A stretch of 25,418 bases of DNA from a virus, in the IMG/VR virus record IMGVR_UViG_3300031565_004200, positions 1 through 25,418 of that record. One strand, written 5' to 3'. Within the stretch, counting starts at the first letter, position 1, and the number at the start of each line of letters is the position of its first letter. The notes below the pieces were generated by a model that had not been told where the DNA came from, ran no database searches, and saw only the letters and a program-made list of their open reading frames with translations. Positions 4,903 through 24,905 of the stretch are shown one piece after another. The position numbers and the translations under genes are program-made.

Positions 4903-6068
4903 TGCGAGCTGATCTAATTGTAAAGCGCCCATTGCGACCTGCAGGTAATCAAGGATTGCCTCTCTATGTTTATGGGCAAAAACCTGAGATACCGATGTTG
5001 AGGGCTCCTTCTTATCCTCTCTCTTTTGAGCGGTCGATGCATTCGGGGTATTTAGTTTCCCTCTTGCAGAAGGGGGCGGATATTGATCCGTGGGACATTA
5101 CTACTGAGAGATCGATGTGTTTGAGTAAAGCAGGATTAGCTCAGAAGGTGAGTACAGATTCTAGTGTTGATCCCTATGGTAAGACTCAATTTAGAGCAAC
5201 CCCCTCGGTTAGCAAGCCTAAGCTTAGCGTAGTTCCGCCAATGCGCGAGCCTGTTAGTCCTAAAGGTATTGGGGAGAAGCCTCCGACTAAGGAAGGAGAA
5301 AAGGCTGAATTCTTTAACTTTCTAGAAAATAAAGATCCTAAGTTGGGGGAAGAAGGACCAAAGCCTAGAACTAAGACTAGAGTATCTGAGATGAAGGATT
5401 TATATGCAGATAGTCCGAGCCAGATTAAAGGTCGTCCTGCGATACATCAAGATTCTCCAGACGTGTCGAGTCCTGAGCATAAGTTGGCTGCGGCTAAATC
5501 TGGGAGAGACTATCACTACTCTAATCATATGTACCATGCGGGTCAGTCAAGGGATGCAGGACTACCAGAAGCCCAACGCAAAGACCATGCACAGTTAGCT
5601 GCTCAACACGCTCACGGGTGGAAGGTTTCGGATTTACATGTTCGATCACACGAAAGTATGGGGACTAAAGATACTGAGAAGCACCATGCAGATTGGTCAC
5701 AGTATCATAGACTGAATGCTGATCGCCATAAGGAGAATCCGGCTAAAGAGAGTGGAGTACCTGATACTACCCACGCTACTTCTATGTCACGACACAAGTT
5801 CCATGACTCCCGAGCTGGATTCATGCCTGGGGAGATTGAGCACGTTGGGCAGTTACATGATTTTACAACTGCTGGTTCCAAGGTAACCAAGGTACCGAAA
5901 GAACAGAAAGTGCCAGCTAAGCTTCAATCAGCCAGTCACCTTCAGGTTCCTACTCCTGATACAGGATCATTTGCTGCAGGGGCTAAGCCAGCTGGTGAGA
6001 GTGCTGATACTATGAGCCTAAAAATTAAAAAGTCTTTAGATGATCTTTTTTCGATGGTATCAGCATAA
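4902..6068 (+). CDS. Unrecognised head-module protein with His-rich centre
   Basis: 388 residues, family not recognised. The N-terminal ~90 residues contain hydrophobic and aromatic patches (GLPLYVYGQKPEIPMLRAPSY). Residues ~90-180 are Pro/Lys-rich and probably disordered. The centre, ~190-310, is very His-rich (DYHYSNHMYHAGQ, AQLAAQHAHGWKVSDLHVRSHE, EKHHADWSQYHRLNADRHKE). The C-terminus ends SLKIKKSLDDLFSMVSA, matching a short motif seen in neighbouring proteins. The start codon overlaps the preceding stop; the stop abuts the next ATG. The regular spacing of His and Asp could bind metal, but no known metallo-enzyme signature was recognised. Confidence 0.65.
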   Translation: MRADLIVKRPLRPAGNQGLPLYVYGQKPEIPMLRAPSYPLSFERSMHSGYLVSLLQKGADIDPWDITTERSMCLSKAGLAQKVSTDSSVDPYGKTQFRATPSVSKPKLSVVPPMREPVSPKGIGEKPPTKEGEKAEFFNFLENKDPKLGEEGPKPRTKTRVSEMKDLYADSPSQIKGRPAIHQDSPDVSSPEHKLAAAKSGRDYHYSNHMYHAGQSRDAGLPEAQRKDHAQLAAQHAHGWKVSDLHVRSHESMGTKDTEKHHADWSQYHRLNADRHKENPAKESGVPDTTHATSMSRHKFHDSRAGFMPGEIEHVGQLHDFTTAGSKVTKVPKEQKVPAKLQSASHLQVPTPDTGSFAAGAKPAGESADTMSLKIKKSLDDLFSMVSA

Positions 6069-8111
6069 ATGGCAGCTCTAACTAAAGAGCAGATCAGCAG
6101 GCTTATTGAGCTGATTCGAGATCATACGAGTTGGTTAAGTTTTCGCTTGATGGGTTCGAGATACGTGGATCAGTTTGAGATTAATAGGTTGAAAGCCATG
6201 GGGACGCTCCCTATGGATGTACAGATAGACTCAATGGAGTACGCCTTTGTTCTCGGTAAGCTTGAGGCTGTGCTAAAAGAGGCTGAGTGGAAAAATTTGT
6301 CTTGGAATGAATTGGTATCCAAGACTGAGAGAGGGCTTACAGATATCCAAGAACTTCAAATAGAATCAGCTGCTCTATCAGCACAGGGAGTTTTTAGAGG
6401 TCTGGAGCAAGAGATACAGCAAGGTCTCTTCAGAAATATGGCAAATGCTGTTCAGACAGGAGTCAGTAATGCTACGGTAAGAGGTGTTATTGGGGATGAG
6501 ATTCAGACAGCTGTCGAGACTCGAAAGACCTACCTTAAAGTAGCTGAGGAGTTTGAGGAGAAGCTGAAAGAGCCTAAGAGGAATTGGGAGAGGGTAGCTA
6601 TAACTGAGATGCATAACGCACGACAGCAAGGTGTTGTCGCTGCTATTGTAAATAAAGAGGATGTGTACCGACATTCTGATGGTGAAGATAGTGATGTAAC
6701 TATTCAGCTTGATCCTAAAGCATGTGATGATTGTAATCGAATCTACATGGATAAGAAGACGGGCAATCCTAAGATTTTCAAACTATCCGAGCTATTGGCA
6801 AACGCGGGGACGAATTATATTCGCCCATGGCGTCTAAATGCTAGGCCAGTAGTCCCTCCCCTGCACCCAAACTCTATTGCTGGTTATGCAGTTGTTGAGG
6901 GTAATACTATTGCGGCAACTAAGATGTCATACACGGGGAAGATTAGGGAAATCGTAACAGCTCAAGGTCGAACGCTTCCCGTTACCCCAAATCACCCGAT
7001 AGCAACCAGCAGGGGATTTATTCCTGCTGGTCAGGTTCAAGAAGGAGATTATCTCCTGTCTTACAATGAGGGGATCGAACAGGCAAATGTATCTAGGTCC
7101 ACTTTTGTATCTGGATCCCCTGTCTTTCCTCCAGAGAATGGTCAGCACGGACCAACCAAGATCGAGGAGGTATTCCATACGCTGTCTCTCATGAATAAGC
7201 CCCTCTCCATAAGGAGGCTTGGCAGCGAGTTCCACGGCGATGCGGCGTATGGGGATGGCGACATCGAGATTGTATATGCCGACAGCAAATTGCGGGACAG
7301 CACTGAGACCACAGACGTTGATCAGATCCAGCGTCTCTTGCTCGAATCGGCCAAGTTTTCTTCCCTTGCCGTTCAGCATAAGCGCCTTGGCACATCGCTT
7401 TTTATGGGTGACGGAGTTGGTCTTTCCGAGACGATTTCCACTCATACTTCGGAGTCTAGCAAATCCTTCAGTCTCCCATCTGAGACGTTGTGCGTCGGAT
7501 CTACCTCGCACTTGGATACCCTGCTCCTTGAAATGGGCGGTCAGTTTACAACGCGAGATGCCAGTTTCTGCGGAAATCTTGTAGAGGGACTTCCCAGCTT
7601 GGTGTTGCAAGATCAAGTTGTCGAGATTAGGGATGTTGACTATTCTGGTCATGTGTATGATCTCCAAACAGTGAGTGGAGTCATTGTATCTGAAGGATTA
7701 ATAATAAGCAATTGTTTCTGCAGATTACGCTATGTGCCGCGAGGGTGGGGATGGAATAAGAAGAGGAGAATGACTGTTATGGATAAAGAAGAATATGAAA
7801 AGAGGCTCAAAAAGAGCGTAGAGATTTTGCGTAAATCAAATGAAGAATCCGAGGATCCTCCGGGTAGTCACTCTCTACTACATTCAAGTCTGTCCTCAGT
7901 ACAGATACCAACTAAAGAAGAGATCTATCAAATTCATGATAAGAATGAGGCTGACAAGCTAGTTGATAAGCTTCGAAACTTAGGAGAGCTTCACTCAGAC
8001 GATGCTGATGCGTATCACCACATTCAAGATTTGATTAATTTCGCGTTGGATCAGTCTTATGTACTTGATAATGGTGGTCTAGCGGAACCGGAGCCAGAAA
8101 ATGTCCAATAG
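6069..8111 (+). CDS. Mu gpF-like minor head protein, interrupted by an intein
   Basis: 680 residues, made of ~400 residues of head protein split by a 280-residue intein. The first extein has the family's helical core, with RVAITEMHNARQQGVVAAIV at about residue 177, then C219 and C222 (CDDC). It stops at LHPN268. The second extein resumes CFCRLRYVP from C549. Joined, they give HPNCFCRL, the Cys/His-rich signature ending the Mu gpF family (compare HPNCRC), so splicing would rebuild the zinc-binding motif. The ~100 residues after that are charged, with KKSVEILRK. Mu gpF-type proteins are minor head components encoded near the portal, as here. The gene starts directly after the preceding stop and overlaps the next gene by 11 bases. 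Splicing itself is inferred. Confidence 0.88.
   Translation: MAALTKEQISRLIELIRDHTSWLSFRLMGSRYVDQFEINRLKAMGTLPMDVQIDSMEYAFVLGKLEAVLKEAEWKNLSWNELVSKTERGLTDIQELQIESAALSAQGVFRGLEQEIQQGLFRNMANAVQTGVSNATVRGVIGDEIQTAVETRKTYLKVAEEFEEKLKEPKRNWERVAITEMHNARQQGVVAAIVNKEDVYRHSDGEDSDVTIQLDPKACDDCNRIYMDKKTGNPKIFKLSELLANAGTNYIRPWRLNARPVVPPLHPNSIAGYAVVEGNTIAATKMSYTGKIREIVTAQGRTLPVTPNHPIATSRGFIPAGQVQEGDYLLSYNEGIEQANVSRSTFVSGSPVFPPENGQHGPTKIEEVFHTLSLMNKPLSIRRLGSEFHGDAAYGDGDIEIVYADSKLRDSTETTDVDQIQRLLLESAKFSSLAVQHKRLGTSLFMGDGVGLSETISTHTSESSKSFSLPSETLCVGSTSHLDTLLLEMGGQFTTRDASFCGNLVEGLPSLVLQDQVVEIRDVDYSGHVYDLQTVSGVIVSEGLIISNCFCRLRYVPRGWGWNKKRRMTVMDKEEYEKRLKKSVEILRKSNEESEDPPGSHSLLHSSLSSVQIPTKEEIYQIHDKNEADKLVDKLRNLGELHSDDADAYHHIQDLINFALDQSYVLDNGGLAEPEPENVQ
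6927..7652 (-). CDS. Antisense HTH plus Vsr/EDxHD-like homing endonuclease within the intein
   Basis: 241 residues on the minus strand. Residues ~10-58 form a helix-turn-helix (AGKSLYKISAETGISRCKL, then KEQGIQVRGRSDAQ). Residues ~102-175 look like a Vsr/EDxHD-type nuclease core: E104/E106, PQFAVGIYNLD130VAI, IAVE141L, H154, and the YLLDLGWSVLTILW helix-strand typical of DUF559/Vsr proteins. The end has CYRVIWGNGK. The conserved G-G-x-W-H stretch expected after the Glu is replaced by AAKPPYG, so activity is uncertain. The frame begins at ATG 7652, preceded by GGAG nine bases away; an upstream TTG at 7667 is less likely. The gene spans nearly the whole intein and stays inside it. Recognised by eye from family pattern; a chance antisense frame is the alternative, but domain order argues against it. 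Confidence 0.72.
   Translation of the reverse strand: MTRIVNIPNLDNLILQHQAGKSLYKISAETGISRCKLTAHFKEQGIQVRGRSDAQRLRWETEGFARLRSMSGNRLGKTNSVTHKKRCAKALMLNGKGRKLGRFEQETLDLINVCGLSAVPQFAVGIYNLDVAIPIRRIAVELAAKPPYGEGLIHERQRMEYLLDLGWSVLTILWRKDRGSRYKSGPRYICLFDPLIVRQEIISFLNLTSRNKSPAGCYRVIWGNGKRSTLSCYDFPNLPRV
7662..7665 (-). promoter_or_regulatory. Ribosome site of the antisense endonuclease gene
   Basis: Minus-strand GGAG (CTCC on the + strand), nine bases before ATG 7652. It lies between the candidate antisense promoter and the start codon, and it decides for ATG 7652 over TTG 7667. Confidence 0.55.
7683..7711 (-). promoter_or_regulatory. Candidate promoter for the antisense endonuclease gene
   Basis: On the minus strand TTGCTT (7711-7706) and TACAAT (7688-7683) are separated by exactly 17 bases. 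The -10 matches TATAAT at five of six positions; the -35 matches TTGACA at three of six. Predicted transcription start is near 7676, giving a ~24-base leader that contains the GGAG site. The promoter lies within codons for the intein's C-terminal block and ends on the intein/extein junction, so the unit would be self-contained. Short promoter matches also occur by chance. Confidence 0.5.
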
Positions 8112-11100
8112 TAATATGCAAAAAGCACTGGACATCTTAAAGTCCATTAATAAAGTACAGGTAGAAAAGATTCCTGGTGGTGCTGCAGCAGGAAAGGAGT
8201 CGAAAGATTACGACTCTGATCAACTGAAGATTGGTACACAGCACGAACTTGAACATGGAAAAGACCAAAAACTGGCTCAAGAAATAGCCATGGATCACTT
8301 GGAAGATGATCCTAATTACTATCGAAAATTGGAGAAATTCGACAAAGCTCAACCAGGAGAAGAGTTAGACGAGTTTCGTGGAGGAGACCCAGAGATAGCT
8401 CAGGAGAAAAAAGAAGAGAAAAGAGAAGAGCAAGAGTTAGAGAAGGCCGGTGCTGGTGAGGAAGCTGGAGAGTTTAGAGGAGGAGACCCAGAGCTAGCTC
8501 AGCAGAAAAAAGAAGAGAAAAGAGAAGAAGCTGCTGGCGCTGGTGAGGTAGATGAACCAGCAGAGGAAATGGATCAGGATGAGGCAGACGAACTGATTGC
8601 AGAGGAGGCTGAAAAGGAGGAAGAGAAGTCGGTGAAGAAGGCTATGCCTCTAACGTCATCTCAGGTTTCTCCAGTAGATACTCTAGAAGATTATCGTCCG
8701 CGAGATATCAATGGTGACCCTCTGGATAAAAAACCAGAATATGCGATGCCCGATATCAAAATAAGCCCTACACGTAGAGGGGCTAATCAGTTTAGACCGT
8801 GGTCTGAGGTTACTGGAATCAAGATTCCTCTCACAGGCAACCCGTGGATTCATATGAAGCGATGGTTGATGCGTGGAGACGACAAGAGGGCTATTGAAGA
8901 GAATGATAAGTTGTCTCGTTGTATAGATGAGTCTTTTTACGAGTATCTGACTGACTTTGCAAAAGCAGGTGTGGAAAAGCTTCTAATACTGAATCATGGA
9001 CTTATGTTTGACCCCTATTGCTTCGGTACTTTGGTCAAAGCTGCGAAGTGGGAAGTTATTCCTGGTCATAAGTACATCTATCGTGAGTGGAAAGGGGATG
9101 CTTGGCGGTATACCTATACTGATGGGATTCACAATAATCACGGAATTCAGCATGCAGGTAATCAGCAGGGTCATACAGTAGAGGCGCATGATGATTGGCA
9201 CCAGCAAGACCCAGAGCACAAAGACCCGAAGGGTGGCTTCGAGCATGCTCAACAAAAAGTTATGGAGACAGGTGGGGTATTTCCTCTTACGATCAACAAT
9301 CCAGATACTCCCACAGGAGAACCTGTACCGGAGAAATTTCACCTAGTCGTTAGACCTGGAGGTCAAGCAAAACCGCTGGAACTACATCGAGACGAGGGAC
9401 AAGATCCTTCAAAATTGAAACCATCTAAGGCTGACAAACGGATGAGGAGCTTCGATGATCTGGAGCATCATTTTCGTAAGACTCAGCATGTCAGTACAGA
9501 GCTTGGACCGGATGGAACTCCGTATCTGCAGTGGTATATTGGAAAGCCTGGGAAGTCTAAAACAGGGAAAGAAACTACTGAAAATCGTCCATACGTGAGA
9601 TTCATTGAGTCTAGTCCTCATTACCAAGAGTATGGATTCCAAACCAGCAAGAGCGGAGCTGGCTGGTTTCGACCATTTCGCAGTATTGAGGGGATCAAGA
9701 ATCATCTGCAAAAAGTGGCTGAGCAGCATACTCAACTTAGTCAAGATAAAGTATCCACGAGGGATATTAAACCTGCTGAGAAGGGTAAGACTTGGGCAGA
9801 GACTATTGAGTCTGGGGCATTCTCAGGAGCTAAAAAGAAAGTAGATATTGCCTATAAGAATACAGAAGATCCCAAGAAAGGCGGTAAACGTCGAGGTGTG
9901 ATGCGAGTGGATTGGGAATCTGGTGCTGAGCAGCAACGAGTTACAGGAGGAATTAGGAGAGAATTCGAAGGCATGTCGGTAAAGATTGCGAATGATCTTG
10001 TACGAGAGGCTAACAAGAAGCGGATGGAACAGGGTAAGATGCCGATCACCGGCAAATCAAAAGGCCGTATGATTGGCAATTTGATCTCTACTCCTGCCGT
10101 TATTGCAGTGAATCGTGCTCTTGATGGGTACACCCCTGGTAAGGCTAAGTTTTCATCATATCTGTACAGCCATATGCAGGGAGAAATGCTCAATGAGATG
10201 AGAGCAGCGTCAGGTGGGGAAATCGAACGACATACGGCAGCTACTGATACTTCTGACCTATTTAATTCAGGTAAATCATCTGAAGGAAGCAGAGTACCTA
10301 AAGCACGCATGTCGGCGCACAATGCTGCGATTGATGCAAGTGATAAGACTCCGCAAATCGAACACGAAGATCTCCGAGAGTGGGCGAACAGAGCAGAAGA
10401 GCACATGTACAACCACTACATGGCAGCTTTGGAGAGCGACACAGAAGATGCTGCTGAGATCGATATTAAGATGGCGCAGGTTCAGGATGAACTTGAGGGA
10501 GCTGTCAAAAGTGGGGATTACACAAAGGTGTTGTCTCTTATAAATAACCACACAGATCCCAAACATGGAGGAATTCAAAACTTCTTGCCACCACTGGAGA
10601 TCAAAAATCGTGCAGAACTTCATAGTCAGATGGATGATGCAGTAAAGAGGGGAGAGGTTGAACAAGCCTTAAAGCAGGAGTATGGGGACGGCAGGCTTGG
10701 AGAGACCCTTTCCGATATTGATAACTCGATTCCTGAAGAGGAGCGAGATGAGGGAGTGTTCTTCAGCCCAAGTATGAAGAAGAGGATCAAGAATGAAGGA
10801 CTACAGACATTTAAAGATTTGGCTGTGTCTATTCAGAGAGATCCGTCTATTTCCCTGGGAGAGAAAGCAAAGTTCAACTCAATCGCAGAGTGGGTTAAGC
10901 GTGATTCGACTCTGTCAGCAAAACACGGTCCAGTACCTAGATCTGAGGAGTTGGAGAAAGCTCTCGATATATTGAAGGCCAATCTTCCAATACCTCCGCA
11001 GACTCTTGATCAAGACAGTGGTAAGAAGGACGAAGGAGTGAATCCACTTGGAAGAACCGAGCAAGAAGAACAACCAAATAATAGTCCTCCTGACGTGCAG

Positions 11101-12729
11101 TACATCGGGAAGAGAGGTGAGCCAGAGGCACCGCAGTTTCTGTATGAGACTTCAGGTGTTAAGAACATCGTGTACGGGACTAATGCCCCAAAGGACAGCA
11201 GGGATTATGACGAAGTATTGGGAGATCCTGTATTCGACCCGCACGAGCCACATCCCGAAACTCAACCGGAGTTTTTTGATGAGCAAGGACGAAAGTTGAG
11301 TGGTCCTGTTCCTGAAGATGTAGAAGTAGAGGACAATCCAGAATACGACGAGGATAGAACGAAAGGTAACTTTTGGGTCAAGAGGTATACCGATCCGCAG
11401 ACAGGAGAACCTGTTTACATTTATCTTCATCGTGATCAGATTTTAGATCCACGGTTGAAGAATAATATTGAGATCAAGTATCTCGATGAGCAACTGCCAA
11501 AAATACGAGCGTGGTATCAAGAGAAGATGATGTCCGCTGACCCACATGACCGTGCAGTAGCACTATTGACTGCGTTAGTTGATCAAGCAAAATTCAGGAT
11601 CAGAGAAGTCTTGCTGGGGTTGCGTGTCAAGGATGTAACGGTACATGATCACACTAAAATTACTGTAAGACTTCCTCATGGCGGTTCAACTGATGTCACA
11701 ATGGATAGAACTCCTATGAATGTTTTGAGAGAGATCATGAGTGGGAAGAAAGAAGATGATCTCATATTCGAAGTGAATGGAGATAAATTCGATTATGAGA
11801 CGTTTGCTAGGTTCATGAAGGATAACTTCGGAGTCCTGCCGTCATTCTTTCACACTTATCATGTGACGGAGTTGTTTTCAAAAGAATTTCATAAGTTAGT
11901 TCGTAAGGATACTGAAGAGCTGTCTTCAGATCGTATGGATGAGTTGAAGCAAGAGGCGCTAAAGAAGGTGGCAGATGTTCTGCATATCCATGATCCAGAA
12001 TTCCTTGAGTCGCATCTGGACCCAATTGCAATGGAAGCTCTATATTTGGCTGCTCATACGACTGACAAAAAGCATCTCAGTAAAGGGTCTTTTAAGCTTC
12101 AAGGAAGACTTTCATTCCAAGGATTGCCCGTTTCTATTGAGAATAAAAAAGGATCAGTAAGAAAGTGGTACGACCCTCACGGCGAGGAGAGTGGCCAGAC
12201 TAAGATGCATTTTGATTATGGATACATCAATGGAACCTGTGGTGTAGACGGTGATTATGTCGATGTGTACATTGGACCAAACAAGGAATCTAAAACAGTG
12301 TTTGTGGTCCATCAGATGAAGAAGCCAGATTTCAAAAAGTATGATGAAGATAAGGTCATGCTTGGGTTTGATTCAGCAAAAGAGGCCAAGTCAGCCTATC
12401 TAAAGCAGTACAATGATCCTGGATTCTTTGGTGCCCTGGACGAGATTCCAATGAACGCATTCAAAAAGAAGGTACTAGCTACAGCTGAACGACCTTGTAT
12501 GATAAAGTCGTGGCATGTCGCGGTAAACCCGCCTGACAGAGATCCTGATGAGACAATGTTCTCTCAATGGGTCCATTCCTATCCCATACACGAGCACTAT
12601 TTTCATTGGGATGCTTATCAAAAGAAAGCTGAGGATGCTCAGTTTGAAGACATCGCTAGGATTGGACTGATCGGCGGAACGAAGAAACCTCCCATGAGCG
12701 GGGAGTCTCATGCAGAGGTGTCCTTGTGA
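8101..12729 (+). CDS. Polyvalent multidomain protein: DUF5661-, sigma region 2-, topoisomerase IB- and pyrophosphatase-like
   Basis: 1542 residues. Domains in order: DUF5661-like segment, ~23-78 (IPGGAAAGKESKDYDSDQL, HELEHGKD, EIAMDHLEDDPNYYRKL); acidic repeats, ~86-145; unassigned region to ~600; sigma-70 region 2-like segment, ~640-702 (VNRALDGYTPGKAKFSSYLY, HMQGEMLNEMR); topoisomerase IB-like domain, ~1088-1320 (FWVKRYTDPQTGEPVYIYL, RIREVLLGLRVKDV, FFHTYHVTELF), with His1305 (ESHLDP) where the family has its Tyr nucleophile (SYxHP); and inorganic-pyrophosphatase-like domain, ~1336-1459 (SIENKKGSVRKW, HFDYGYINGT, DGDYVDVYIGP, DEDKVMLGF). Fusions of this kind are described as phage polyvalent proteins, thought to be packaged and delivered with the DNA; that role here is inference. 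It overlaps the minor head gene by 11 bases. The pyrophosphatase-like domain is the most secure assignment, the sigma-like the least. Confidence 0.8.
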   Translation: MSNSNMQKALDILKSINKVQVEKIPGGAAAGKESKDYDSDQLKIGTQHELEHGKDQKLAQEIAMDHLEDDPNYYRKLEKFDKAQPGEELDEFRGGDPEIAQEKKEEKREEQELEKAGAGEEAGEFRGGDPELAQQKKEEKREEAAGAGEVDEPAEEMDQDEADELIAEEAEKEEEKSVKKAMPLTSSQVSPVDTLEDYRPRDINGDPLDKKPEYAMPDIKISPTRRGANQFRPWSEVTGIKIPLTGNPWIHMKRWLMRGDDKRAIEENDKLSRCIDESFYEYLTDFAKAGVEKLLILNHGLMFDPYCFGTLVKAAKWEVIPGHKYIYREWKGDAWRYTYTDGIHNNHGIQHAGNQQGHTVEAHDDWHQQDPEHKDPKGGFEHAQQKVMETGGVFPLTINNPDTPTGEPVPEKFHLVVRPGGQAKPLELHRDEGQDPSKLKPSKADKRMRSFDDLEHHFRKTQHVSTELGPDGTPYLQWYIGKPGKSKTGKETTENRPYVRFIESSPHYQEYGFQTSKSGAGWFRPFRSIEGIKNHLQKVAEQHTQLSQDKVSTRDIKPAEKGKTWAETIESGAFSGAKKKVDIAYKNTEDPKKGGKRRGVMRVDWESGAEQQRVTGGIRREFEGMSVKIANDLVREANKKRMEQGKMPITGKSKGRMIGNLISTPAVIAVNRALDGYTPGKAKFSSYLYSHMQGEMLNEMRAASGGEIERHTAATDTSDLFNSGKSSEGSRVPKARMSAHNAAIDASDKTPQIEHEDLREWANRAEEHMYNHYMAALESDTEDAAEIDIKMAQVQDELEGAVKSGDYTKVLSLINNHTDPKHGGIQNFLPPLEIKNRAELHSQMDDAVKRGEVEQALKQEYGDGRLGETLSDIDNSIPEEERDEGVFFSPSMKKRIKNEGLQTFKDLAVSIQRDPSISLGEKAKFNSIAEWVKRDSTLSAKHGPVPRSEELEKALDILKANLPIPPQTLDQDSGKKDEGVNPLGRTEQEEQPNNSPPDVQYIGKRGEPEAPQFLYETSGVKNIVYGTNAPKDSRDYDEVLGDPVFDPHEPHPETQPEFFDEQGRKLSGPVPEDVEVEDNPEYDEDRTKGNFWVKRYTDPQTGEPVYIYLHRDQILDPRLKNNIEIKYLDEQLPKIRAWYQEKMMSADPHDRAVALLTALVDQAKFRIREVLLGLRVKDVTVHDHTKITVRLPHGGSTDVTMDRTPMNVLREIMSGKKEDDLIFEVNGDKFDYETFARFMKDNFGVLPSFFHTYHVTELFSKEFHKLVRKDTEELSSDRMDELKQEALKKVADVLHIHDPEFLESHLDPIAMEALYLAAHTTDKKHLSKGSFKLQGRLSFQGLPVSIENKKGSVRKWYDPHGEESGQTKMHFDYGYINGTCGVDGDYVDVYIGPNKESKTVFVVHQMKKPDFKKYDEDKVMLGFDSAKEAKSAYLKQYNDPGFFGALDEIPMNAFKKKVLATAERPCMIKSWHVAVNPPDRDPDETMFSQWVHSYPIHEHYFHWDAYQKKAEDAQFEDIARIGLIGGTKKPPMSGESHAEVSL
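8380..8528 (+). repeat. In-frame direct repeat, 99-base period
   Basis: Two near-identical ~50-base copies (8380-8429 and 8479-8528) starting GGAGGAGACCC encode EFRGGDPE[IL]AQ followed by KKEEKREE. They lie in the acidic linker of the polyvalent protein. The 99-base period keeps the frame, consistent with a recent internal duplication. Confidence 0.75.
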
Positions 12730-18811: not shown

Positions 18812-20785
18812 ATGGCCCAGATTAAATTATTCAAATTTGACACTGACGGATATCAAGTTGAGCACGATCCGACTACGGATGATATTTCAGTATTGTCCTT
18901 GACTGTTGGAACTGGAGGAATCTCCGTCAACGGTCCTTTGGATATGCTTGACAATCAGATAGTCAGTGTTCCGACACCGACTGATCCTGACCATGGTGTA
19001 AACAAAGCGTATGTAGACGCAGTTGCCCAGGGGCTAGATGTACACGAAGGTGTTATTGCCAAAACAACGGATGGCCTTGGGACGCAGATTACCCTCGCTG
19101 GATCTGGCGGTACTGGTACTATGCCTACCTCATCCTCATTCGATTTTAGGCTTGACGGTGAGGCAAGTTGGACGACTATTACTTGGAACAATCCTGCCGA
19201 TATGGCTGCCTGCGCAGCGTTTATCAACTCCGAGTACGGTGCTACCGTGGCTTTTGTCAATGGAAACAACATTGACTTAAAGAGTTTGATCTACGGCAAA
19301 AATTCCCAAGTTGAGACACAAAATGTACAAACAGAAACCACGACAAGGATAGGTATTCAAAACGACCAAGATGTAAGTGGCGTTGGATTTACCGCTGCTG
19401 GTGCTGGTGTTGGTAAGACCCTCACCGCTCCTACCTCTTCCAGCTCTTACAACACCATCGACACCTCGTATCTGTCAGTTGGAGATCGCGTTCTCGTTTC
19501 TTGCGAGGCAGGATACGATACGGTGGCAGATGTAGACAATGGCCTCTACGAAGTCACAGCTCTTGGGGACGACGGAAGTACAGCACTAGAGCTGACTCGT
19601 ACCACGGATTGCGATGTGGCTTCCTCAACTGAGTTCCACAACGGAACTTATGTATTTGTTACTGCTGGAACAGCCTATGAGAATACTGGTTGGACTTGCG
19701 TAACTGACGTGGTTACTGTAGACACCACAGCCAACAAATGGACACAGTTCTCAGGAGCACCTGGCCTCACTTTCGATCAAGGTTTGGTGAAGGTTGCTGC
19801 ATCAGTTCAGGTAGAACTGGACACTGCTGCAGACGCTGCAACTTCTGGAGCTGCCGGTGGTTCCTCTGGTTTGGAGTTTGATGTTGATACGGCTTCCGGT
19901 AAGATTCGAGTTCGCGTATCACCCACTGGTGGTATTGACCGCCTAGCTGATGGTATTGGCCTCGACCTCGACGGAACGACTCTACAGTTAGATGCCGGTG
20001 GTGCAGGTTCTGGTGTGTCGGTTAAGGGCCTCCCGAGCTTGTTCGAGATTAACGGAAATGCCGTTAGCGCGAATGTAACCGCAGCCAACGTAGACACTTT
20101 GGTAGCGGGAGTATCCTCGGATGCGGACGCTCTGCATACCCACGATGGAAAGTCTAACACTGGTCATACGCATACCCATGCGAGCACTACCAGCCAGGGG
20201 ACGGACGATCACCATGCGCAGTCTCATGCGCATAATGGTGTGGATGGATCTGGCACGGTTGCTCACAGTGATACAACCGGACAGGGTACCGACGATCACC
20301 ATGCTCAGGCACATGCACTTGATGGTGGAGATCACACAGTTACTGGATTGACCGCTGGCGATGTGCTAACGGCTTTAACCTCTACAACCTTTGGATTCGC
20401 AACACCAGTATCCGACCACACGGAGTTTGATGCAACTGCAGGAACGGGTGGGGTTACGAAAGGTGATCCTGTCTACATCTCAGCTAATGGGATAGTTCTC
20501 CCATGCTCCAACACCAACAACAACACTCGAAAGTATTGTGGTGTTGCTCTCGAAACCAAAGCCCAGACTGAGACAGTCCGTGTTCAGCAGGACGGCAAAT
20601 TGGTTGATGTAACGGTTGGTGGATCACCTGTCGGCGGCGATTATGTTTATCTAGGATCTACCGGATTGACGGTTACTCTCCCAACAGGATCGGGAACTCA
20701 CAGAATGGTTATTGGTAAGATTTTTGATGCGTCGGGAACACCTGACGTGGTCATCGAACCTCAATACCTTGGGAAGATTGGCTAA
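18812..20785 (+). CDS. Fibre-like virion protein, paralogue 1 of 3
   Basis: 657 residues. Domains by eye: N-terminal LFKFDTDGYQVE and VNKAYVDAVAQGLD (~1-78), probably the attachment part; a copy-specific beta-rich region (~80-250); a shared block with FHNGTYVFVTAGT and TGWTCVTD (~260-325); GGSSGLEFDVDTASGK and a DRLADGIGLDLDG strand set (~345-400); a His-rich zone with HTHDGKS and two GTDDHHAQ repeats (~440-510); and a C-terminal domain from GGVTKGDPVY to the end (~548-657). The His pairs recall metal-binding HxH motifs of T4 long-fibre tips; metal binding here is inference. AAGGAG precedes the ATG. It could be a tail or head fibre; the sequence does not decide. Confidence 0.72.
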   Translation: MAQIKLFKFDTDGYQVEHDPTTDDISVLSLTVGTGGISVNGPLDMLDNQIVSVPTPTDPDHGVNKAYVDAVAQGLDVHEGVIAKTTDGLGTQITLAGSGGTGTMPTSSSFDFRLDGEASWTTITWNNPADMAACAAFINSEYGATVAFVNGNNIDLKSLIYGKNSQVETQNVQTETTTRIGIQNDQDVSGVGFTAAGAGVGKTLTAPTSSSSYNTIDTSYLSVGDRVLVSCEAGYDTVADVDNGLYEVTALGDDGSTALELTRTTDCDVASSTEFHNGTYVFVTAGTAYENTGWTCVTDVVTVDTTANKWTQFSGAPGLTFDQGLVKVAASVQVELDTAADAATSGAAGGSSGLEFDVDTASGKIRVRVSPTGGIDRLADGIGLDLDGTTLQLDAGGAGSGVSVKGLPSLFEINGNAVSANVTAANVDTLVAGVSSDADALHTHDGKSNTGHTHTHASTTSQGTDDHHAQSHAHNGVDGSGTVAHSDTTGQGTDDHHAQAHALDGGDHTVTGLTAGDVLTALTSTTFGFATPVSDHTEFDATAGTGGVTKGDPVYISANGIVLPCSNTNNNTRKYCGVALETKAQTETVRVQQDGKLVDVTVGGSPVGGDYVYLGSTGLTVTLPTGSGTHRMVIGKIFDASGTPDVVIEPQYLGKIG

Positions 20786-20790
20786 GGTTT

Positions 20791-20828
20791 AACTAGCGGG
20801 GAGTCTGTTAATCAGGCTCCTCGCAGTT
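20791..20828 (+). terminator. Hairpin after fibre paralogue 1
   Basis: GCGGGGAG (20796-20803) pairs with CTCCTCGC (20817-20824), with inner CTG/CAG and outer AACT/AGTT pairs. No T run follows, so termination may be partial or the stem may protect the upstream mRNA. Confidence 0.5.
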
Positions 20829-20876
20829 ACTTCTGTCAAATTGTTAAATTGCCATAATCTTTAAAGGAGAGAAACG

Positions 20877-22838
20877 ATGGCTCAAGTTAAACTTTTTAAG
20901 TTTGATACCGACGGGTATCAAGTAGAACAAAATCCGTCTACGGACGATATTACCGCACTTTCAATAACAGCAGGAACTGGGGGAGTTACTGTCAATGGTT
21001 CGTTGGAGATGAACGATGAGTTCATCTCAGGCGTTGCAGCACCGACCAATCTAGATCATGGAGTAAATAAAGCGTATGTAGACGCTGTTGCTCAAGGTCT
21101 AGATCCACACGTATCAGTCAGACTCAAAACAGCCGTAGGTATAGGTGAGCAGGCAGAGCTTGACGGCTCTGGTCTTGGTCCAACTATATCTCTTGGCACA
21201 GAGTCGATGGACATAAAAATTGATTCTGATGCAAGTTGGACCACCATTACCTTTAACAATGAGACAACTATTATCGCTGCCAAGAATGCGATTAACACAC
21301 AGTATGGTGCGTCAATTGCCTCTGCTGCCGGTGACAGCGTTAAATTGAGGAGTTTATTCTACGGTTCCAGTGCAAGGATTCAAACACAGAATGTTGACGC
21401 TAACATCACCACGCAGACGGGTATCGTGAATAACGCAGACGTGTCTGGGGTAGGTATGAATGCAGCAGGTTCTGGTGTTGGAAAAACTCTCACCTCTCCA
21501 GGCACAGGACTTGATTGGAACCTCATAGACGGTCAAAATGTTGAAGTTGGAGATCGTGTACTCGTTTCTAACGAGAATGGTGTTGCCGCTCACGTTGACA
21601 ATGGTATCTACACCGTAACTCGGGTTGCAGTTTTTTCAAGTACCACGATGCAACTGACCCGCGCTACCGACTGCGACGAAGTATCAGATACCGAGTTCCA
21701 TAACGGAACTTATGTATTTGTTACTGCCGGAACAGTAAACGAAGGCACCGGTTGGTCTTGTGCAACCGATATGGTTGCGGTAGATACCACGGCAAACTTG
21801 TGGGCTCAGTTCTCAGGGGCACCTGGTATTACGTATGATCAAGGTCTTATAAAAGATGTTAGCTCGGTCCAAGTCTCTTTGGATACCAATGCCGACGCGG
21901 CTACCACAGGCGCTGGCGGTGGTTCTTCTGGTTTGGAGTTTGACGTTGACACCGCATCTGGCCAGCTTCGTGTTCGCGTATCATCTACTGGTGGCATTGA
22001 TCGATTGGCAGACGGTATAGGTCTTGATCTAGATGGGACAACTCTTCAGCTAGATAGCGGTGGAGCTGGAGAAGGTGTATCAGTTAAAGGAGTACCTTCT
22101 ACATTCGAGATCAATGAGAGTGCAGTTAGTGCGAATGTAACTCACACAGCCCTGGGAGTTTTGACTGCTGGTGCATCTAGCGATGCCGATGCCTATCATA
22201 CCCACGATGGAAAGTCCGACAGTGATCATACGCATGCTCACAGTACCCTTACAGACCAAGGAACTGACGATCACCATGCCAAATCCCATGACCACAGTGA
22301 TAGTTCTCTTGCTCACAGTGTCCTCACTGGGCAAGGAACTGATGACCATCATGCCCAGGAGCATGCGCTTGATGGTGGAGATCACTCAGTTACTGGCTTG
22401 ACGGCTGGTGATGTTCTGACTGCATCTGGGGCAACCACTTTTGGATTCTCAACACCAGTATCCGATCATGCAGAGTTTGAAGCTACTGCTGGAACCGGAG
22501 GAGTTACTAAAGGTGATCCTGTTTATCTTTCAGCCAATGGAACAGTGTTACCTTGCGATAACACCAACAACAACACCCGTCGGTTTTGTGGTGTTGCTCT
22601 TGAAACAAAGGCGCAAACTGAGACAGTACGTATCCAACAAGATGGTAAATTGACTGACGTAACAATCGGCGGTTCACCTTCTGGGGGAGATTTGGTTTAC
22701 TTGAACTCCACTAATGGTCTGACAGTTACCCTTCCAACAGGATCGGGAACTCACAGAATGGTTATTGGTAAGGTCTTTGATGACACAAGTACTCCTGATT
22801 TGGTTATCGAGCCACAATATCTTGGTAAGATTGGCTAA
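20877..22838 (+). CDS. Fibre-like virion protein, paralogue 2 of 3
   Basis: 653 residues, same domain order as the copy upstream. Shared: the LFKFDTDGYQVE start, KAYVDAVAQGLD, the FHNGTYVFVTAGT block, GGSSGLEFDVDTASG, HTHDGKS, GTDDHHA repeats, and the GDPVYLSANGTVLPC C-terminal domain. The region at ~80-215 differs most from the other copies (SVRLKTAVGIGEQAELDGSG, then QYGASIASAAGDSVKLRSL). This pattern, conserved ends with a diverged middle, fits alternative receptor or ligand specificities on one common shaft. AAAGGAG precedes the ATG, and a hairpin follows the stop. The last ~95 bases of similarity with copy 3 are identical in DNA. Confidence 0.72.
   Translation: MAQVKLFKFDTDGYQVEQNPSTDDITALSITAGTGGVTVNGSLEMNDEFISGVAAPTNLDHGVNKAYVDAVAQGLDPHVSVRLKTAVGIGEQAELDGSGLGPTISLGTESMDIKIDSDASWTTITFNNETTIIAAKNAINTQYGASIASAAGDSVKLRSLFYGSSARIQTQNVDANITTQTGIVNNADVSGVGMNAAGSGVGKTLTSPGTGLDWNLIDGQNVEVGDRVLVSNENGVAAHVDNGIYTVTRVAVFSSTTMQLTRATDCDEVSDTEFHNGTYVFVTAGTVNEGTGWSCATDMVAVDTTANLWAQFSGAPGITYDQGLIKDVSSVQVSLDTNADAATTGAGGGSSGLEFDVDTASGQLRVRVSSTGGIDRLADGIGLDLDGTTLQLDSGGAGEGVSVKGVPSTFEINESAVSANVTHTALGVLTAGASSDADAYHTHDGKSDSDHTHAHSTLTDQGTDDHHAKSHDHSDSSLAHSVLTGQGTDDHHAQEHALDGGDHSVTGLTAGDVLTASGATTFGFSTPVSDHAEFEATAGTGGVTKGDPVYLSANGTVLPCDNTNNNTRRFCGVALETKAQTETVRIQQDGKLTDVTIGGSPSGGDLVYLNSTNGLTVTLPTGSGTHRMVIGKVFDDTSTPDLVIEPQYLGKIG
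22686..22780 (+). repeat. Direct repeat shared with fibre paralogue 3
   Basis: 95 bases starting GGAGATTTGGTTTACTTG are identical to 24753-24847. Within them, 39 bases from CCAACAGGATCGGG are also identical in paralogue 1 (20681-20719). Silent sites are conserved here but not in the surrounding sequence, which points to recent gene conversion. Confidence 0.85.
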
Positions 22839-22842
22839 GGCA

Positions 22843-22892
22843 TAGTAGAGGAACCGGAGATCACTTAGGTCTTTGGTTCCTCATTCTTACTA
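22843..22892 (+). terminator. Hairpin after fibre paralogue 2
   Basis: GAGGAACC (22848-22855) pairs perfectly with GGTTCCTC (22875-22882). AGA/TCT can pair inside and TAGTA/TACTA outside. Only ATTCTT follows, so this is a terminator-like or mRNA-end hairpin rather than a textbook terminator. Confidence 0.55.
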
Positions 22893-22925
22893 GCGAAGTG
22901 CTAAATCTTTTAAGGAGGAAACAGT

Positions 22926-24905
22926 ATGGCTCAAGTTAAGTTTTTTAAGTTTGATGCTGACGGGTATCAAGCCGAACTTGACTCGTCTGCAGACGAAATT
23001 TCTGCACTTTCAGTAACAGCAGGAACTGGAGGTGCTTCTGTCAATGGTTCGTTGGATGTTCTTGACAACCAAATTTCCAATGTTCCAATACCGACTGAAC
23101 CGCATCATATAGTAAACAAAGAGTATGCAGACGCTATTGCGGCTGGGTTAGACCTGCATGATCCGGTGGTTGTAAAGACTGATGAAGCTCTAGGTAAAGT
23201 TGCAACAATTGTTGGCTACGGCGGCTCTGGTAGTATGGATTCAGGTACTGCATCTCTTTATATCCAAATGGATGACGACGTAAGTCCTACCTTCATTACG
23301 CAGACTAATCCAGGAAATATTGCCAATTTTGTAAACACAATCAACACGGTCTACGGTTCGAATGTCGCCTCTCGAGGAGGGATTTGGGGGAACAATTTAC
23401 AGCTTGACGGGACTATTAAAGGTAAGAAGGGAATTGCTAAAATTACCAACGCTTCTGCGGATATGAAAGCCGCCTATGGCATAAATAGCGGTGGAACTAC
23501 TCGTTACGGTTCAGGCTTAGACGCTACTGGTTCTGGTGTTGGTAAGACTCTTACCGCATGGACCTCTGACTCCGCGTCCAATACCATTGACGGTGTCCTT
23601 CTCGAAGTCAATGATCGCGTATTCTATTCTAATGGGGGAGGCGATGATACAACGCCTGACGTAGATAATGGTATCTACAAAGTTACTGCTTTAGGAGACG
23701 ATGGGAGCACGAAGTTTGAATTGACTCGTACCACTGATTGTGACGAGGCTTCAAGCTCAGAGTTTCATTATGGAACTTATGTGTTAGTCACTGAAGGAAC
23801 ATTAGGCGCAAGCACTGGTTGGTCTTGTGCAACCGACGTAGTTACCGTCGATACAACGGAGAATGTATGGGTTCTCTTCTCAGGAGCACCAGGCTGGAAT
23901 TACGATCAAGGTCTTATCCAAAACGTAACCTCAGTTAAGGTTGACTTGGATACTGCCGCAGATGGTGCGGGTGCTGGGGAAGCGGGTGGCTCTTCTGGTT
24001 TAGAGTTTTCCGTTGATAGTGCATCTGGTAAGCTCCGTGTGCGAGTTTCACCCACAGGAGGTATTGATCGCCTTGCCGATGGTATAGGTCTTGATCTCGA
24101 TGGGTCTACTGTTGGTCTTGATGTTGGCGGTGCTGGTACTGGGGCATCAGTTAAAGGAGTACCTTCTACATTTGAGATCAATGGGAGCGCAGTTAGTGCG
24201 AATGTAACTCACACAGCCTTGGGGGTTATGACCGCTGGTGTATCCAGTGATGCTGATGCGTATCATACCCATGATGTAAAGTCCGACAGTGATCATACTC
24301 ATGCTCACGGTGATCTTACGAGTCCAGGCGTTGATGACCATCATGCTCAATCACATACCCATGGTGATAGTTCTCTTGCTCACAGTGTCCTCACTGGTCA
24401 AGGAACTGATGACCATCATGCCCAATCCCATGTACTGGATGGAGGAGACCACAGTGTTTCTGGGTTAACAGCTGGTGATGTACTGAGAGCAGCATCTGCA
24501 TCGACCTTTGGATTCTCGACGTTAATTTCCGATCATTCGGAGTTTGACGCTACCGTAGGTTCTGGAGGAGTCACTAAAGGTGATCCCGTTTTCATTTTAG
24601 CGAATGGGACAGTGCTACCCTGTGACAACACAGATAACAATACTCGTAGGTTTTGTGGTGTAGCTTTGGAAACCAAGGCACAGGGCGAGACAGTGCGTAT
24701 CCAACAAGACGGTAAGATGGAAGATGTAACAGTCGGTGGTTCACCTTCTGGAGGAGATTTGGTTTACTTGAACTCCACTAATGGTCTGACAGTTACCCTT
24801 CCAACAGGATCGGGAACTCACAGAATGGTTATTGGTAAGGTCTTTGACGATACCGGTACTCCAGACATCGTTATCGAGCCACAATATCTCGGTAAAGTTG
24901 GCTAA
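22926..24905 (+). CDS. Fibre-like virion protein, paralogue 3 of 3
   Basis: 659 residues, same architecture as the two copies upstream, closer to copy 2 in the C-terminal half. The start is FFKFDADGYQAELD; the copy-specific region (~80-200) differs again, with GSGSMDSGTASLYIQMDDDV and GGIWGNNLQLDGTIKG. Shared blocks are FHYGTYVLVTEGT, GGSSGLEFSVDSASGK, DRLADGIGLDLDG, GVDDHHAQSH and GTDDHHAQSH, and the final domain ending in VIEPQYLGKVG. AAGGAGG precedes the ATG. Unlike copies 1 and 2 it is not followed by a hairpin; the next gene begins 14 bases after its stop. Confidence 0.72.
   Translation: MAQVKFFKFDADGYQAELDSSADEISALSVTAGTGGASVNGSLDVLDNQISNVPIPTEPHHIVNKEYADAIAAGLDLHDPVVVKTDEALGKVATIVGYGGSGSMDSGTASLYIQMDDDVSPTFITQTNPGNIANFVNTINTVYGSNVASRGGIWGNNLQLDGTIKGKKGIAKITNASADMKAAYGINSGGTTRYGSGLDATGSGVGKTLTAWTSDSASNTIDGVLLEVNDRVFYSNGGGDDTTPDVDNGIYKVTALGDDGSTKFELTRTTDCDEASSSEFHYGTYVLVTEGTLGASTGWSCATDVVTVDTTENVWVLFSGAPGWNYDQGLIQNVTSVKVDLDTAADGAGAGEAGGSSGLEFSVDSASGKLRVRVSPTGGIDRLADGIGLDLDGSTVGLDVGGAGTGASVKGVPSTFEINGSAVSANVTHTALGVMTAGVSSDADAYHTHDVKSDSDHTHAHGDLTSPGVDDHHAQSHTHGDSSLAHSVLTGQGTDDHHAQSHVLDGGDHSVSGLTAGDVLRAASASTFGFSTLISDHSEFDATVGSGGVTKGDPVFILANGTVLPCDNTDNNTRRFCGVALETKAQGETVRIQQDGKMEDVTVGGSPSGGDLVYLNSTNGLTVTLPTGSGTHRMVIGKVFDDTGTPDIVIEPQYLGKVG
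24753..24847 (+). repeat. Direct repeat shared with fibre paralogue 2
   Basis: Identical over 95 bases to 22686-22780; see that entry for the shorter tract also present in paralogue 1. Confidence 0.85.

Follow-up and report, generated by a model that had tools for sequence, protein, structure and literature searches.

The locus described here raises the question of whether an intein can carry its endonuclease as an independent gene antisense to its own coding sequence, and whether such a gene could be expressed from signals written into the codons of the intein's own splicing domain. It lies within a 25,418-nucleotide stretch of viral DNA (IMG/VR record IMGVR_UViG_3300031565_004200; hereafter, the window), in which an open reading frame of 680 codons (6069-8111, plus strand) was identified as a MuF-like head morphogenesis gene containing an intein, on the basis of its intein blocks and of relatives annotated as head morphogenesis or MuF-like minor capsid proteins. 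Alignment with relatives, Pfam and a model of the sense protein place the 280-residue intein at 6873-7712 (plus strand), running from Ser1 to Ser279-Asn280 and followed by Cys+1 at 7713; a start near 6894 was considered and dropped, since the alignment puts the first residue, Ser, at 6873. The predicted spliced extein reads HPN-CFC, with its junction at HPN/CFC (slashes mark the intein-extein junction throughout).

The features that define a HINT splicing domain (blocks A/B and F/G, a terminal Asn, and Cys, Ser or Thr at +1) are present in the window as TPNHP (block B, 6984-6998, plus strand; invariant in the family alignment), GHVYDL (block F, 7647-7664, plus strand; matching the family pattern) and SN/C, together with ordered, beta-rich ends in the sense model. 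In that model (14 sequences; mean pLDDT 53), residues 1-66 and about 240-280 form ordered beta structure, and residues 110-229, with an average pLDDT of about 25-38, are predicted to be disordered. The window's match to Pfam Intein_splicing (PF14890; E 6.7e-6) misses the gathering score (26.4 versus 35.8 bits), probably because the middle of this intein is unlike that of other inteins. Its residue 1 (6873-6875) is Ser, where nearly all relatives have Cys1; inteins that begin with Ser are known.

Opposite this domain, a minus-strand reading frame starts with an ATG at 7652-7650 and runs for 241 codons to a stop at 6929-6927. The frame is codon-aligned with that of the intein and covers 723 of the intein's 840 bases (about 86%), so that most of the element is double-coding. 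Profiles built from 14 and from 48 such antisense proteins matched PDB 3hrl (E 1.2e-7 and 2e-5, respectively) and 3r3p, the structure of I-Bth0305I (E 3.6e-4 and 1.6e-4), and 41 of the 48 members match Pfam MTES_1575 (PF18741) at E <= 0.01; the window's own protein scores below the gathering threshold of that family (18.2 versus 38.2 bits). An AF2 model of the antisense protein (48 sequences; mean pLDDT 83.3) consists of an N-terminal helical region and a PD-(D/E)XK core. The former gives matches to HTH families in relatives, with the predicted HTH at about residues 10-43, and the Vsr-like nuclease domain spans about residues 100-215. Foldseek returned I-Bth0305I and Vsr as top matches to this model (E 3e-3, probability 1.00, with none below 0.001), and VIA-align ranked 1cw0_A (Z 11.8; 114 residues, 2.4 Å), 3hrl (Z 11.7; 90 residues, 1.8 Å) and 3r3p_A (Z 11.3; 93 residues, 2.8 Å) ahead of mitoribosomal and FASTKD4 proteins (Z 8.8-10.6). 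Among the antisense proteins Y127, N128, D130 and E141 are invariant (D130 and E141 in all 48) and E104 and R158 nearly so; all are present in the window, where the acidic residues E104, D130 and E141 are encoded at 7343-7341, 7265-7263 and 7232-7230 on the minus strand. Homology to the EDxHD homing endonucleases was recovered by profile (E 1.6e-4), the residues conserved here reading E104-YNxD130-E141-R158. The modelled core fold and its conserved acidic residues identify the predicted product as a Vsr-like PD-(D/E)XK protein. Set side by side, the low pLDDT of the sense middle and the confident fold of the antisense protein make the former look like a linker and the latter like an enzyme.

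How might this gene be expressed? A preliminary description had proposed a self-contained set of signals, and these are present letter for letter on the minus strand: a -35-like TTGCTT (7711-7706), a 17-nucleotide spacer, a -10-like TACAAT (7688-7683), and a Shine-Dalgarno GGAG (7665-7662) nine bases 5' of the ATG at 7652. As described, the start, the Shine-Dalgarno site and the promoter-like hexamers fall inside codons of the C-terminal splicing block, antisense to head-gene transcription, in a pattern that recurs across the family. The block-F His codon, CAT, is the antisense ATG read from the opposite strand, and the block-F Leu codon, CTC, supplies the GAG of the Shine-Dalgarno site. A TTG at 7667 was disfavoured as the start because the family start is the ATG opposite the block-F His. 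The -35 had been placed on the intein/extein junction; it does lie over the last two intein codons (Ser-Asn, 7707-7712), with one further base, a position shared with L002, L003, L024, L025 and L028, but ends one base short of Cys+1.

These signals had also been taken to form a complete promoter, which holds for their layout and for the enrichment seen in the family, but the window's site is unconvincing by itself. It matches TTGACA at three of six positions and the -10 consensus at five of six, and its score against a promoter weight matrix (9.2) is equalled in 23% of synonymous recodings that keep the sense protein unchanged (p = 0.234). Sites scoring at least as high occur about 0.45 times per kb per strand in the window, and a stricter scan of 6000-9000 returned two promoter-like sites, against 4.3 expected, with this one absent from the list. 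The window's Shine-Dalgarno site is likewise unexceptional on a longest-match score (p 0.73 against synonymous recoding). A sigma70 promoter, understood as -35 and -10 hexamers 16-18 nucleotides apart in excess of what the coding constraint produces, is found in the family and not at the window's site alone, where the promoter does not exceed chance.

Such weakness, together with Ser rather than Cys at position 1 and a nuclease match under the Pfam gathering score, could mean that the window's nuclease or intein has decayed and that only its relatives are active. Both of its frames are intact, however, the antisense fold is confident, all six conserved nuclease residues are retained and Ser1 is compatible with known inteins, and we consider decay in this copy unlikely.

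To place the window among its relatives, the antisense protein was used in tblastn searches. Phage records matching it numbered 70 with an E cut-off of 1e-5 and 109 with one of 0.01, and one plasmid matched as well. In all 21 records opened with their annotation (20 of the 109 phage records and the plasmid), the antisense match lay inside one larger gene, often annotated as a head morphogenesis, MuF-like or minor capsid protein and otherwise as hypothetical. The antisense gene itself is annotated in none of these 21 record tables; the only overlapping plus-strand CDS, in L011, is in another frame than the antisense match. Two IMG/VR scans added 18 loci and then the best 80 of 122 relatives, and a scan of viral contigs with the window protein alone gave 15 pattern matches and no relative, so that no close relative of the window was found there. 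Each of the 120 loci (the window and 119 others) has a minus-strand frame that keeps register with that of the nuclease and is open over more than 80% of the match. The block F-G pattern was located in 96 of the 120 (as counted from the output), and the block-F pattern was unmatched in 20. Four of four bacterial contigs, from an Arcobacter MAG, Micromonospora, Lamprocystis purpurea and Ornatilinea apprima, share the arrangement. For quantitative comparisons, 60 representatives were drawn from 99 loci by shared 12-mers, with L017 excluded for a wrong motif match.

Across the family, the antisense start lies opposite the block-F His codon: among the 100 loci with a block-F match, the codon at the expected place is ATG in 79, GTG in 12 and TTG in three, with none in six, one of which is the wrongly matched L017. 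In L038-L040 the normally invariant His of block F gives way to Gln (CAA) and the antisense start becomes TTG, so that splicing residue and start codon change together. In L089, L090 and L100 (and also L084) this His is replaced by Tyr, Phe or Lys and the start at that place is lost; the nuclease may begin elsewhere in these loci, or its gene may be in decay. A (G)GAGGT-like site lies upstream of the start, opposite D-L-E/Q, and in loci where the sense protein reads D-V/I/F-S-S (L058, L071, L078) the Shine-Dalgarno site has moved to lie opposite Ser-Ser. When the sense codons were recoded synonymously with the extein codon usage of the same gene, each signal proved more frequent than expected among the 60 representatives: ATG starts (46 versus 25.0), CTC as the block-F Leu codon (38 of 55 versus 10.9) and strong Shine-Dalgarno sites (28 of 60 versus 7.2), with the cruder longest-match score giving a combined p of 0.003.

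For the promoter, the highest score found 5' of the antisense start exceeded synonymous recoding with a combined p of 3e-27 over the 60 representatives (2e-23 in a repeat run, with 42% of loci at p < 0.05; 4e-11 when the target was restricted to the intein alone), values to be read as strong rather than exact, since the matrix weights are approximate and the loci are related, which overstates their independence. Controls were flat: 0.056 when this DNA was scored on its sense strand, and on the antisense strand 0.9986 for N-exteins (170 test segments), 0.77 for mid-intein and 0.955 for C-exteins (25 segments, from 25 of the 60 representatives). TATAAT occurs in 23 of the 60 (4.9 expected) and TGnTATAAT in 11 (0.6 expected), and the 12-base consensus is met with at most one mismatch in five (0.1 expected) and at most two in ten (2.0 expected). 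Two layouts recur. In one, the last intein codons hold the -35, and the -10 stops 26-30 bases ahead of the ATG. Exact cases, with the -35 just within the end of the intein, are L120 (TTGACA-17-TATAAT) and L088 and L107 (TTGACA-18-TATAAT); the window follows this plan in weaker form, with TTGCTT-17-TACAAT. The second layout has an extended -10 resembling TGTGnTATAAT, which lies opposite I-I-x-H-N and ends at -45. Actinophage members (L007, L016) score weakly. The TATA_box labels in phage MB78 were set aside, being on the plus strand and beyond the intein.

These sites could instead be by-products of the I-I-x-H/S-N codons, with a real antisense gene that owes its transcription to read-through or to a phage promoter lying far away. 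This would sit well with the window's own non-significant site, and the Ile/Asn-rich block G does favour TATAAT-like reverse complements, with null means that are not low. Yet synonymous recoding is exceeded by a wide margin, in a strand-specific manner and not in the control regions, and exact consensus pairs stand in L088, L107 and L120, which leaves transcription from elsewhere distinctly unlikely. Because start codon, Shine-Dalgarno site and sigma70-like promoter are all enriched beyond the constraint of the sense amino acids, antisense expression as a design of the family is, at the level of sequence, well supported.

If the antisense frame encodes a protein under selection, codon positions in the intein middle should follow its reading rather than that of the head gene. 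In 18 of 18 related pairs (which share members and are not all independent), sense position 3 is the most variable in the exteins. In the intein middle, sense position 1 (position 3 of the antisense codon) is the most variable in 17 of the 18 (the exception being L087/L097), and antisense residues are less divergent than sense residues in all 18. For L007/L008, changes at positions 1, 2 and 3 number 23, 24 and 70 in the exteins and 50, 7 and 27 in the middle. Comparison of the 60 representatives with one another (1770 pairs) gave 1750 matches for the antisense core, at a median of 107 bits, and 1544, at 62 bits, for this DNA translated in the sense frame; the antisense outscores the sense translation in 1746 of 1752. 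The sense motif DFHGD is the mere complement of the nuclease's VAVEV. Judged by these substitution patterns, the antisense frame is a real gene and the intein middle evolves as an antisense protein; a chance reading frame is ruled out because the codon-position constraint flips there. That the frame mirrors a constrained sense protein, held open by codon alignment, is scarcely credible: in-register antisense frames are prone to long chance openings in GC-rich DNA, and some GC-rich members have long spurious ones elsewhere, but neither accounts for the flip, for the better conservation of the antisense protein, for an open frame in the window with a log10 probability of -7.9 or for profile and fold matches to known nucleases.

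The preliminary description had further suggested that such signals would serve the intein in any host gene it entered. Among the 60 representatives, the insertion site is essentially always N/C[RK]C of a MuF-like head gene, mostly HPN/C and in some cases SIN/C or VIN/C (the N-side junction printed for L087, L102, L112 and L118 is a wrong stretch); with essentially one insertion site, spread into other genes is unsupported. Intein-free alleles of this site were found. The Jerseyvirus head gene matched 349 phage records (L009 and Salmonella Jerseyvirus relatives). In 58 of them, 80% or more of the intein-bearing gene is present, and most of the listed records below 80% match in two pieces, without about 816 bases (272 codons). 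FSL SP-101 has an uninterrupted HPNCRS where the intein-bearing gene has a 272-residue insert. The head genes of Salmonella Jerseyviruses are thus polymorphic for presence of the intein, and would offer a natural system in which to test homing.

Taken together, these data make it very likely that we are dealing with a mobile intein in which the homing endonuclease, instead of forming a domain of the precursor protein, has an opposite-strand gene and start signals of its own. We infer a cycle of protein splicing, antisense transcription, nuclease activity and homing, as follows. The sense strand of the head gene would be read through, and the two ends of the intein would fold as a HINT domain and excise themselves, leaving a sense linker of roughly 170 residues as filler that only has to remain open. 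The reverse strand would encode the HTH and Vsr-like nuclease, whose ATG faces the block-F His and whose Shine-Dalgarno site faces 'DL'; a sigma70-type promoter would face the C-terminal block G, close to where the intein ends. With a promoter of this type, host RNA polymerase could make the nuclease against the direction of the head gene. Head genes lacking the intein would then be cut by the nuclease at their insertion site, and repair would copy the intein in. It is also likely that the family represents a widespread and unrecognised class of mobile intein, with splicing domain and homing endonuclease on opposite strands and with codons of the C-terminal splicing block that serve also as a sigma70 promoter for the host, a ribosome-binding site and a start codon, which would uncouple the nuclease from the late head gene.

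Large (bifunctional) inteins carry an in-frame, nested endonuclease domain of the LAGLIDADG or HNH type. The family described here resembles them in its HINT blocks A, B, F and G, in having an endonuclease between B and F and in being a mobile insert in a phage gene, but differs in that the endonuclease is a separate antisense gene and the sense linker is predicted to be disordered. Fractured genes with split inteins, which Dassa et al. are said to have described in 2009, reportedly carry a Vsr-like endonuclease gene between the split intein halves; they share the association of such an enzyme with an intein, whereas the intein here is in one piece and most of it codes on both strands. I-Bth0305I, which is the product of a group I intron, is matched in profile and fold and likewise combines an HTH-type DNA-binding region with a catalytic domain; the present proteins are intein-borne and conserve E104-YNxD130-E141-R158. 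Vsr-like and EDxHD homing endonucleases as such are already known (PMC3943268, PMC12350094). Antisense homing endonuclease genes, one with a reported potential internal promoter, are described from nuclear rDNA group I introns (PMC9548176); these are likewise antisense to their host gene, but reside in RNA-splicing introns of eukaryotic rDNA without overlapping a protein-coding splicing domain. In the open-licence literature, including the consulted parts of PMC12350094, PMC9548176, PMC3943268 and PMC7765530, we found no published description of an intein with an antisense endonuclease, and the arrangement appears to be undescribed.

If this reading is correct, it would add an intein architecture to the large, mini and split forms, and would provide a clear and repeatedly sampled case of antisense double coding, with a self-splicing protein on one strand and, opposite it, the enzyme for its mobility, a gene overlooked in the 21 annotated records. 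It also raises the questions of how an element parasitic on a head gene gets its nuclease expressed, how head-gene and antisense transcription interact, and how two proteins co-evolve in register. Elsewhere in the window, a single 1542-residue open reading frame, multi-domain by its appearance, follows immediately after the head gene (8101-12729), and three consecutive plus-strand genes at 18812-24905 (657, 653 and 659 residues) have near-identical N-termini, MAQ[IV]K[LF]FKFD[TA]DGYQ, and resemble paralogues in tandem, perhaps encoding tail or fibre proteins.
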